Shown in pieces: positions 5,535-40,454 of a stretch of DNA of 64,000 nt; position 1 is the stretch's first letter, and each line of letters opens with the position of its first letter. The notes under the pieces are model-generated. The model was not told the origin of the DNA, did no database searches, and saw only the letters and a list, made by a program, of their open reading frames with translations. This DNA is from Photobacterium atrarenae (GTDB taxonomy: Bacteria > Pseudomonadota > Gammaproteobacteria > Enterobacterales > Vibrionaceae). Position numbers and translations under genes: made by a program. The stretch lies in the NCBI RefSeq assembly GCF_024380015.1, contig NZ_CP101509.1:248001-312000 (forward strand). The letters run 5' to 3'.

Positions 5535-6569
5535 TCAGAACAATTTCAGGCCAAAGGCGCGTTTGATCTCCCCGAGAACAGCATCGGCTTCTTCTTGTGC
5601 CTGCTCACTGCCCTGTTTCAGGAGTGCCACCAGCTGGGCTTTATCCGCCATGTACTCCGCCCGCCTTTCATGGATCGGCGCGACCAGCGTCTGCAGGCAA
5701 TCTGTCAGGATCTGTTTGGTGGTCCCATCCCCCAAACCACCCGCCTGATACTGCTGCTTTAATTCGCTGACATAAGCGGAATCCGGGTGAAATGCATCCA
5801 GGTAGGTGAAGACCACATTGCCCTCCACACAACCCGGATCTTCAATCCGCAGATGGTTGGGGTCGGTGTACATCGACTTCACCGCCCGCGCAATCGCCCG
5901 ATCATCCGAATCCAGGTAAATACAATTCCCCAAGGATTTTGACATCTTGCTCTTGCCGTCCGGTGCCGGTAACCGGGGCATCTCACTCAGCAAAGGGCGG
6001 CATTCAACCAGGATATCTTCCCCAACGATTTGATTGAGTTTGCGGACAATCTCGTTGGTCTGCTCCAACATCGGCAGTTGATCGTCCCCGACCGGCACCA
6101 GAGTCGCCTTAAACGCCGTGATATCGGCGGCCTGGCTTATGGGATAGGTCAGAAACCCGGCCGGTATCGACGCACCGAACCCCTTGCCCTCAATTTCATG
6201 CTTGACCGTCGGGTTACGCTGTAAACGGGCCACCGTCACCAGATTGGCATAGTACATCGTCAGCTCGGCCAGTGCCGGGATCGCCGACTGCAGGCAGATC
6301 CGGGTCTTCAGCGGATCGATCCCAACGGCCAGATAGTCCGCCACAACATTGAGAATATTGTCGGCGACTCTGCGCGGATGATGGCCGTTATCGGTCAGGC
6401 CCTGCATATCAGCCACCAGAATCGTTTGCTGATAGCGATGCTGCAACGCCACGCGCTGTTGCAGGGAGCCGATAAAATGGCCCAGATGTAACTGGCCCGT
6501 CGCCCGGTCGCCGGTCAGGATTTTCTCAGCCGTTTGAGATTTCAGGGAAGCTTGTTGCTGATGGTTCAT
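5535..6569 (-). CDS. trpS: Tryptophan--tRNA ligase (auxiliary-type TrpRS)
   Basis: A 344-residue class I aminoacyl-tRNA synthetase. The HIGH-type signature appears as TGQLHLGHFIGSL near residues 23-35 and the KMSKS loop as GKSKMSKSLG. The ATP/Trp pocket region DMQGLTD and the VGDDQLPMLEQT segment are also typical of TrpRS. The start was moved to 6569 because GGAG lies seven bases upstream; the ATG two codons earlier is only one base from it. Because it stands alone, outside a trp or dam/rpe/gph cluster, it may be a second, inducible TrpRS rather than the housekeeping one; this is inference. Upstream is a leader peptide with tandem Trp codons and alternative RNA stems, pointing to control by charged tRNA-Trp supply. 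Confidence 0.9.
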   Translation of the reverse strand: MNHQQQASLKSQTAEKILTGDRATGQLHLGHFIGSLQQRVALQHRYQQTILVADMQGLTDNGHHPRRVADNILNVVADYLAVGIDPLKTRICLQSAIPALAELTMYYANLVTVARLQRNPTVKHEIEGKGFGASIPAGFLTYPISQAADITAFKATLVPVGDDQLPMLEQTNEIVRKLNQIVGEDILVECRPLLSEMPRLPAPDGKSKMSKSLGNCIYLDSDDRAIARAVKSMYTDPNHLRIEDPGCVEGNVVFTYLDAFHPDSAYVSELKQQYQAGGLGDGTTKQILTDCLQTLVAPIHERRAEYMADKAQLVALLKQGSEQAQEEADAVLGEIKRAFGLKLF

Positions 6570-6589
6570 GATCATACTCCAGGTTAATT

Positions 6590-6682
6590 CCGCCGGAGAC
6601 ACCATCAATGAGTTGATTCAATCGCTGCCTGCCGGCGGCTATTGAATACACGTGATCCAGCGCCGCTCTATAACACAGAGCG
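6590..6682 (-). promoter_or_regulatory. Attenuator-like alternative stems in trpS leader
   Basis: On the trpS strand four segments can be seen. Segment 1 CGCTCT (6682-6677) directly follows the Trp codons. Segment 2 AGAGCGGC (6669-6662) pairs with segment 1 over six bases. Segment 3 GCCGCCGG (6639-6632) can pair with segment 2 over five GC pairs (GCGGC/GCCGC). Segment 4 CCGGCGG (6596-6590) pairs with segment 3 over seven GC-rich pairs. Pairings 1:2, 2:3 and 3:4 are mutually exclusive in the classical way. The 3:4 stem has no U-run and ends about nine bases before the trpS Shine-Dalgarno, so it may act on translation rather than termination. Confidence 0.6.
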
Positions 6683-6727
6683 CCACCAGGAATTTGCGAT
6701 GAAAAAAGCAATAGAATTCATATTCAT
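6668..6727 (-). CDS. Trp-rich leader peptide upstream of trpS
   Basis: A 19-codon ORF, MNMNSIAFFIANSWWRSVL, ending in TAG, 98 bases upstream of the trpS start on the same strand. Two adjacent TGG codons (6688-6683) lie four codons before the final Leu. The same frame is open further upstream to an ATG near 6764 that would add two more Trp codons; neither start has a strong ribosome site. Tandem Trp codons followed by alternative stems are the hallmark of ribosome-mediated attenuation, as in the trp operon leader. Confidence 0.65.
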   Translation of the reverse strand: MNMNSIAFFIANSWWRSVL

Positions 6728-6865
6728 GCCGACAAAATACCAAGGAGACCAGGAAGATGCAACCATGAATACAACAAGTTGCATTTACATTTCGTAGTCT
6801 ACAGATTCGGGCGACAAGTTACAGCAACGCACTAGCTAACACACGAATGTAGCAGATAACTTCTG

Positions 6866-40055: not shown

Positions 40056-40065
40056 ACTAGGCCAG

Positions 40066-40097
40066 AAAAAGAGCGGGCGCGACATCATGTCGCGCCC
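40066..40097 (-). terminator. Terminator of CsrB-type RNA
   Basis: A 10-bp perfect GC-rich stem with a three-base loop (40075-40097), then GCTC and five U. Lying just beyond the MFS stop codon, it may also end that transcript. Confidence 0.85.
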
Positions 40098-40454
40098 TTA
40101 GGTCTTACATGCAGCAATCCGGCTACGTTAGTGCTCCCTGCATCATTCCTTGATTATGCTGATTCCTTCAGCGGTTCCTTTTATCTCTATCCCAGAGATG
40201 TCCTGGCGGTCTTACCTTGACCCGTCGATACATCCTGTCTCGACTCTCTTCTCCTTCCTGGAGGTGTCCCTGACTTCATCCTGAAGTGGTCCTTTGTCGT
40301 CCTGACCGGCAAAAATCCTATTTGCCTTCTCGGCTCCATCCGAGCATCCCTTCACAGTCCCTGTCGATAAGTCATCCTGATTTACCGCCCTCTTCCTGAG
40401 GTTGCCATCATCCTTGGCATTGTTCCTGTTCCGTTCCGTCAGTTCCTTCCGACG
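40066..40454 (-). ncRNA. csrB: CsrB-family regulatory RNA
   Basis: The reverse strand of this gap contains about 27 GGA triplets in ~390 bases, many as CAGGAUG, AGGAAC or CAGGGAC in loops of small imperfect stems, the hallmark of RNAs that sequester CsrA. It ends at a strong terminator: GGGCGCGACA/TGTCGCGCCC (40097-40075) followed by GCTCTTTTT. A promoter (TTGTAT, 16 bases, TAATCT) places the 5' end near 40454. The ~389-base length fits CsrB (369 bases in E. coli). In Vibrio, CsrB-D are induced by VarS/VarA. Confidence 0.85.

Follow-up and report, generated by a model that had tools for sequence, protein, structure and literature searches.

On the minus strand of the window, the whole 64,000-nt stretch of Photobacterium atrarenae DNA analysed here, lies trpS2, a gene for an auxiliary tryptophanyl-tRNA synthetase (TrpRS) that starts with an ATG at 6569. 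It is preceded by a short open reading frame (ORF) with two adjacent Trp codons (TGGTGG, 6688-6683), by a predicted promoter, and by a series of RNA segments with alternative pairing partners (Table 1). An earlier note on this DNA had pointed to a 19-codon ORF before trpS that contains a pair of Trp codons and to three complements that follow, and all of these are present: CGCTCT (6682-6677) with AGAGCG (6669-6664) as 1:2, GCGGC (6666-6662) with GCCGC (6639-6635) as 2:3, and CCGCCGG (6638-6632) with CCGGCGG (6596-6590), which the note called 3:4. The first two pairings are conserved among relatives.

Table 1. Features of trpS2 and its leader region, in order of transcription (window positions; SD, Shine-Dalgarno sequence; percentages are paired cells in alignment A1).
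Feature	Position	Strand	Basis
Predicted -35 element, TTGCAT, 17 nt from the -10 element	6757..6762	-	aligns with a TTG that relatives conserve at -35 to -33 relative to the leader ATG
Predicted extended -10 element, TGGTATTTT, with 6 nt between its end and the leader ATG	6734..6742	-	position of the TGNTANNNT motif in relatives
Leader ORF, MNMNSIAFFIANSWWRSVL then stop, 19 codons, predicted leaderless	6668..6727	-	ORF reading and comparison with relatives
Segment 1, TGGTGGCGCTCT, Trp-Trp codons and 5' arm of 1:2	6677..6688	-	1:2 swap test; no variation of TGGTGG among the 46 rows of alignment A1, which were selected by TGGTGG itself
Segment 2, AGAGCGGCGCTGGA	6656..6669	-	can pair with 1 (1:2, 96.7% of cells) or 3 (2:3, 99.6%)
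Segment 3, ...AGCCGCC	6634..6651	-	can pair with 2, 4 or T
Segment 4 and loop, GGCA + GGCAGCGATTG	6619..6633	-	inner stem of 3:4 paired in 86.5% of cells; pairing with 5 (4:5) makes up the top of hairpin B
Segment 5, TGGTGTCTCC, anti-SD	6595..6604	-	can pair with 4 or, as 5:6, with the SD (swap test; 88.2% of cells)
Segment T, GGCGG, 3' arm of hairpin B	6590..6594	-	hairpin B 91.3% paired; RNAalifold
Segment 6, CTGGAGTATGAT, including the trpS2 SD GGAG at 6580-6577	6571..6582	-	5:6 swap test
trpS2, auxiliary tryptophanyl-tRNA synthetase, 344 aa	5535..6569	-	PF00579; TIGR00233 above cut-off

The auxiliary nature of the enzyme, which the same note had proposed, is borne out by its kinship with TrpRS II and by the presence of a second copy in the genome: trpS2 in the window is accompanied by a main TrpRS gene (L003) on the larger replicon, and two other PF00579 matches in the genome are presumably TyrRS. 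In the PDB, the trpS2 product comes closest to 1yi8 and to 2a4m, an entry named tryptophanyl-tRNA synthetase II; both are from Deinococcus radiodurans. In all 142 TrpRS II loci that could be read by pattern, a redundant set, Gln replaces an active-site His that the main TrpS keeps within an HAIT motif. We take this site to be the equivalent of His43 and to be relevant to indolmycin, to which the H43N change reportedly confers resistance. A literature search found no paper on H43N as indolmycin resistance, and the accessible parts of PMC6804068 and PMC12135181 were indecisive on the matter.

The TrpRS II gene of Pseudoalteromonas luteoviolacea HI1 (L084) directly follows an aminotransferase-like ORF and has glyoxalase-like and methyltransferase-like ORFs nearby (functions assigned by eye). 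These neighbors match the indolmycin cluster as presented in the available excerpts of PMC5069768, which discuss a tryptophan-tRNA ligase of that cluster, unk1, as a resistance gene. No Trp-Trp leader was found in the region upstream of this TrpRS II, the control of which is presumably that of the indolmycin-like cluster. Given the Gln at the His site and a relative in an apparent indolmycin cluster, kinship makes it likely, if unproven, that the trpS2 product tolerates indolmycin.

The leader ORF accompanies the gene in most relatives. Among trpS2 loci fetched from 120 relatives by protein similarity, 80 were kept, and a Trp-Trp leader precedes 74 of them (63 with WWRS, 7 with WWCS, 3 with WWHS and 1 with WWRA); a genus search found such a leader in 30 of 30 loci, one being the window itself and several repeating named species. 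The residues before Trp-Trp vary among leaders, and WWR gives way to WWC, WWH, WWQ or WWL in other rows. Within the same 80 loci, L016 has a leader with Trp-Arg, not Trp-Trp, and no Trp-Trp leader was found in L039, L054 (examined over 225 nt upstream), L081, L082 or L084. The Psychromonas sp. CD1 locus (L039) retains an anti-SD/T-like stretch with no Trp-Trp ORF found, and its leader seems to have decayed. The Celerinatantimonas trpS2 (L082) has a single-Trp leader, GWRAYFKRR, together with GCCGCC...GGCGGTTTTG and a T4-tailed hairpin, possibly a purely transcriptional form. A longer, Trp-rich start for the window's ORF, MVASSWSPWYFVG..., from an in-frame upstream ATG at 6766, was considered and set aside: the closest relative (L086), with a TrpRS 86% identical to that of the window, has no ATG in the 48 nt before its leader ATG. 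One further locus (L085) is a duplicate of the window.

The promoter predicted in the window, with the layout TTGCAT-17-TATTTT-6-ATG, occupies a similar position in relatives. In 70 of 88 sequences, 6 or 7 nt separate the end of the TGNTANNNT motif from the leader ATG; each of the remaining distances between 0 and 134 nt is represented by two of the 88 at most. SD-like words before the leader ATG are rare: GGAG, GAGG or AGGA was found between -20 and -4 in 4 of 88 sequences, and one of five 4-mers in 11 of 89. As the -35/extended -10 promoter ends 6-7 nt before its AUG, the leader ORF is probably leaderless, and from the usual spacing between a -10 element and +1 we infer that transcription starts at or beside that AUG. 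In the diverged set described below, TANNNT ends 4-8 nt before the ATG in 12 of 18 ATG leaders, a count without a background control for this set, which comprises 13 diverged loci and 5 from plasmids, including three near-identical plasmid ones. Leaderless transcripts have been reported in the genus: nearly 8% of 5' ends in P. profundum were called leaderless in the portions available of PMC3505737, where trpS is not named.

The RNA was compared through 102 rows, which reduced to 86 distinct sequences used for folding and for counts of T runs, and 46 of these 86 form alignment A1. Sliding the pairing partners by 1-3 columns lowers the fractions of paired cells in Table 1 to at most 55.5% for the set of 1:2, 3:4 and 5:6 and for hairpin B, the long hairpin formed between the 3-4 and 5-T strands, and to at most 79.6% (the maximum at +3) for 2:3. 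In duplex energy, own partners beat swapped partners for 1:2, 2:3, B and 5:6 (0 of 2000 permutations in each case), a test that was run on 89 sequences and on 24 representatives below 80% identity, so that relatedness is only partly removed; the 89 include L016, L108 and L109, which have leaders, failed the SD pattern and were added back. Covariation in hairpin B was 0.378 in the 46-row alignment, versus 0.233 when shuffled, and RNAalifold run without a supplied structure finds 1:2 and B, not 5:6. Individual sequences show matched changes. Seven WWC rows (of 86) have U-A in place of C-G in 1:2, and in L108 and L109 the SD GAGGTAAG is matched by the anti-SD CTTGCCTC. Runs of 5:6 reach 10 pairs in L052 and 9 in L106, and in none of the 89 sequences is the 5:6 duplex weaker than -5.8 kcal/mol (-10.2 in the window). 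On the TrpRS tree, independent covariation events were few: each of the four pairs read gave 1-2 contrasts on starred branches, none significant and most of them in the direction of pairing. Folded as a single sequence, the window's copy of the element is only modestly better than shuffled versions (z -1.97; 6 of 200 reached as low a value).

The alignment of trpS relatives that the earlier note had suggested as a check thus came out in its favor, with conserved WW codons and compensatory changes in the stems (the swap tests and the WWC rows). The 1:2 and 2:3 complementarities are mutually exclusive and stem 1 lies over or beside the control codons, the arrangement of an attenuator; a conserved helix is able to mask the SD of trpS2, as in a translational attenuator of the erm/cat type, with 5:6 a minor component of the window's own fold. 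The four-segment scheme originally proposed holds for its conserved 1:2 and 2:3 pairings and had to be extended at the other end. What was labelled 3:4, and read as the sole OFF hairpin, is part of the longer hairpin B; it shares bases with the anti-SD:SD helix and competes both with that helix and with a local 3:4, so six segments are needed rather than four.

Attenuation itself is well supported by this comparison of sequences, and the leader is quite probably a ribosome-mediated attenuator through which trpS2 is expressed when charged tRNA-Trp runs short; the direction and level of control are what we infer beyond that. In the mechanism that we propose, transcription would start at or next to the leader AUG, and ribosomes would load on the leaderless 19-codon ORF. 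With ample Trp-tRNA, they would proceed to the stop codon and, since the stop codon overlaps segment 2, would cover that segment; segment 3 would then fold with segment 4, and the free segment 5 would pair with the trpS2 SD. The OFF state would therefore consist of 1:2, or a ribosome on segment 2, followed by 3:4 and 5:6. If the main TrpRS were inhibited or Trp were short, ribosomes would stall at Trp-Trp and cover segment 1, allowing 2:3 to form, upon which the freed segment 4 would capture segment 5 and the SD would be exposed, giving an ON state of 2:3 and 4:5 with segment 6 free. Such two-chain logic would turn the gene on under Trp-tRNA shortage, as expected of an auxiliary synthetase.

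Equilibrium folding of the 86 sequences, the window included, does not reproduce a strong switch, and for this reason the idea that 4:5 frees the SD is put forward only as a proposal. Mean SD openness was 0.17 with the ribosome stalled at Trp versus 0.12 with the ribosome at the stop codon, and the corresponding values for the window, 0.08 and 0.16, run opposite to the proposed direction. When segment 1 was masked, the mean probability of 2:3 was 0.15-0.37 (0.00 in the window). With 2:3 forced, opening of the SD was about 1 kcal/mol easier on average than with segment 2 blocked, and this direction was seen in 58 of 86 sequences. In the folding models hairpin B is dominant before the SD has been transcribed, if segment 2 is blocked, so the order of synthesis may decide which fold is adopted.

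These calculations bear on whether the switch could work with the opposite sign, such that plentiful Trp-tRNA lets hairpin B expose the SD and stalling closes it. Hairpin B, which uses bases of the anti-SD:SD helix, is the stronger duplex (means of -18.5 for B versus -12.3 kcal/mol for 5:6), and in the window with the ribosome at the stop codon (segment 2 masked) it is favored, with 5:6 minor (0.05-0.08) and the SD paired elsewhere; it would then expose the SD in the non-stalled state, contrary to our proposal. We nevertheless regard a reversed sign as improbable, given that 3:4 together with 5:6 beats B on average over the 86 full-length sequences in all three states, and that an auxiliary synthetase kept off during a charging failure would make little physiological sense. 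Still less room is left for an active leader peptide, be it a sensor of free Trp in the nascent chain, as TnaC is, or a peptide acting in trans in the manner of peTrpL. The recurrence of WWRS in 63 of 74 leaders would suit such a role, and a trans-acting Trp leader peptide has been reported in S. meliloti in the accessible part of PMC7298713. However, the variable residues before Trp-Trp, the replacement of WWR by WWC, WWH, WWQ or WWL and, in the case of WWC, a matching change in segment 2 make it look as though the nucleotides of the leader are selected, and a peptide-based mechanism is accordingly very hard to credit. As for an ORF and stems arising by chance, the z of only -1.97 in single-sequence folding is what one would cite in favor, but conservation across classes, seen in the leader, the helices, the swap test and the shuffles, refutes this reading so that its probability is practically nil.

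A weightier question is whether control falls on transcription or translation. The earlier note had remarked that the last stem lacks a U-tract and lies about 9 bases before the SD, and had guessed at translational control. Both observations are confirmed in the window: no U-tract follows the last stem (AATTAACCT), and the GGAG of the SD starts 9 nt past the CCGGCGG stem, the spacing from hairpin B to GGAG being 9 and 11 nt in the window and L086, respectively. T runs longer than 2 are absent after 3:4 and after B in both of these sequences, as opposed to what a trp-type terminator would have. With the U-tract absent, control in the window is more likely translational, in support of the guess. 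The missing U-tract does not extend to all relatives, part of which have U runs after one or other hairpin: in 30 of 86 sequences a T run of at least 4 lies no more than 15 nt past 3:4, and in 47 of 86 one lies no more than 15 nt past B. On account of these runs a termination tier is possible in the relatives, where it would probably be added to the translational one; in the window it appears to be absent. Attenuation could even be mainly transcriptional in the style of the trp operon, with 3:4 or B terminating, 2:3 preventing termination and the SD helix serving only as a damper. The T runs in relatives speak for this, as do the sequences GCCGCC...GGCGGTTTTG in L082 and GGCCGCC...GGCGGCCTTTTT in L172 and the slight effect of ribosome position on SD openness. 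Yet neither the window nor L086 has a T run above 2 at either hairpin, and the SD helix is maintained through compensating changes, such that we judge a mainly transcriptional mechanism unlikely overall, albeit the most serious of the competitors to the translational attenuator that we favor.

The element, a gammaproteobacterial version of which the earlier note had regarded as novel, is not special to one gammaproteobacterium: Trp-Trp leaders occur in alpha-, beta- and gammaproteobacteria and in Desulfoluna. Within the genus, trpS2 is present in 40 of 52 genomes, and R1, a covariance model of the RNA built from 46 rows, some from this genus, matches all 40 genomes with trpS2 and none of the 12 without it (some of the matched sequences being inside the model). 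R1 also matches 130 of 296 sampled genomes of the family Vibrionaceae; two family genomes (G143 and G222) carry two copies of the element each. All 30 R1 loci fetched, from 132 matches, run into trpS2, two of them by shorter matches. Over 369 genomes of the class, R1 returned only the genome of the window and one false positive, and it therefore misses diverged forms; the rejected match (G438, E 0.0027) lies not before trpS but inside genes that, from their translations, we take to be phnG/phnH/phnI-like. Protein searches provided further TrpRS II loci, 3 from the 369 class genomes and 24 from 398 phylum genomes. A Trp-Trp leader precedes 18 of the 27, versus 0.1 expected from dinucleotide shuffles. 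After removal of four same-family loci and L159 (Vibrio-like forms), 13 of 22 keep it.

Ahead of diverged trpS2 genes, Trp-Trp leaders are found in alpha- and betaproteobacteria and in other gammaproteobacteria, also on plasmids, and the element is present in three loci of Desulfoluna, which belongs to another phylum. TrpRS II relatives are encoded on 89 plasmid records, including 23 from Staphylococcus and 21 from Klebsiella. Six plasmid loci were fetched, picked among 40 listed of the 89 records, and five have a Trp-Trp leader (Salinivibrio, Variovorax, Methylocystis, Roseibium and Escherichia coli); the Rhizobium leguminosarum plasmid copy does not. In the TrpRS tree, rows from Desulfogranum, Marinomonas, Colwellia and Photobacterium are interleaved, which, together with the Desulfoluna element, fits a joint transfer of gene and leader. 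Tentatively, all of this can be combined into a single scheme: a chained six-segment switch (1:2, 3:4 and 5:6 versus 2:3 and 4:5), in which a leaderless Trp ORF would gate the SD of a mobile, antibiotic-tolerant TrpRS, RNA and gene would form one cassette spread across classes and phyla, and different lineages would have retained transcriptional control, translational control or the two together. Taken as a whole, this scheme is less likely than not. If attenuation itself is borne out, an RNA sensing that the main enzyme has failed would silence, in normal times, an auxiliary, probably inhibitor-tolerant synthetase of marine and other proteobacteria and of plasmids, and the relatives would offer a natural series for how attenuators shift between transcriptional and translational control.

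Parts of the trpS2 leader recall well-studied systems. Attenuators of the E. coli trp operon type likewise have adjacent Trp codons in a leader ORF and the logic of 1:2 versus 2:3. The genome's own trp operon leader (L151), MVQQFHHQLCAFFSWWWHCRSRVV, is a classic attenuator of this kind and distinct from the trpS2 leader: it has a run of three Trp codons, AGGA upstream, a palindrome resembling a TrpR operator, and a T6-tailed hairpin. Unlike L151, the window's trpS2 leader was not seen to have the AGGA, a TrpR-operator-like sequence (judged by eye) or a T6-tailed hairpin. A DAHP synthase-like gene (by eye) lies between the attenuator of L151, with its WWW leader, and trpE. In E. coli, pheST is a case of a synthetase gene under codon-specific attenuation, as is proposed for trpS2, with other codons and fewer segments. 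In the erm and cat translational attenuators, drug-dependent stalling frees a sequestered SD; in the trpS2 proposal, stalling would likewise free a sequestered SD, and the difference is that erm stalling depends on a drug and involves fewer segments.

The nearest counterparts precede auxiliary TrpRS genes in Streptomyces, where Vecchione and Sello reportedly described, in 2010, the attenuator of S. coelicolor trpRS1 and its induction. An attenuator before S. avermitilis trpS2 was predicted according to the available excerpts of PMC1262725. As in Streptomyces, a Trp leader peptide and alternative stems precede a second trpS; unlike that actinobacterial system, the leader described here is proteobacterial and apparently leaderless, has an SD-sequestering helix and, in the window, lacks a terminator tail. 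The accessible part of PMC7298713 describes S. meliloti trpL, which is similar in being a leaderless Trp leader ORF. It differs in preceding trpE, in having a transcription terminator and in being alphaproteobacterial.

We conclude that the trpS2 leader is probably a new proteobacterial variant of ribosome-mediated attenuation, apparently leaderless and SD-sequestering, widely shared and mobile, of which an earlier mention may exist in Vitreschak 2004, an older survey of proteobacterial attenuation. In the open-access literature, among the matches listed, we recognized no paper on attenuation before trpS in this group, and the word trpS does not occur in the portions available of PMC4833913 and PMC2965389. 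The window's copy of the element matches no family in the Rfam release searched: at the gathering threshold there was no match in the element region, T-box and Trp leader included, and up to E 10 there were three unrelated weak matches. The only Rfam match at gathering in the window is a CsrB/RsmB sRNA (RF00018, 120 bits) at 40063-40421 on the minus strand.
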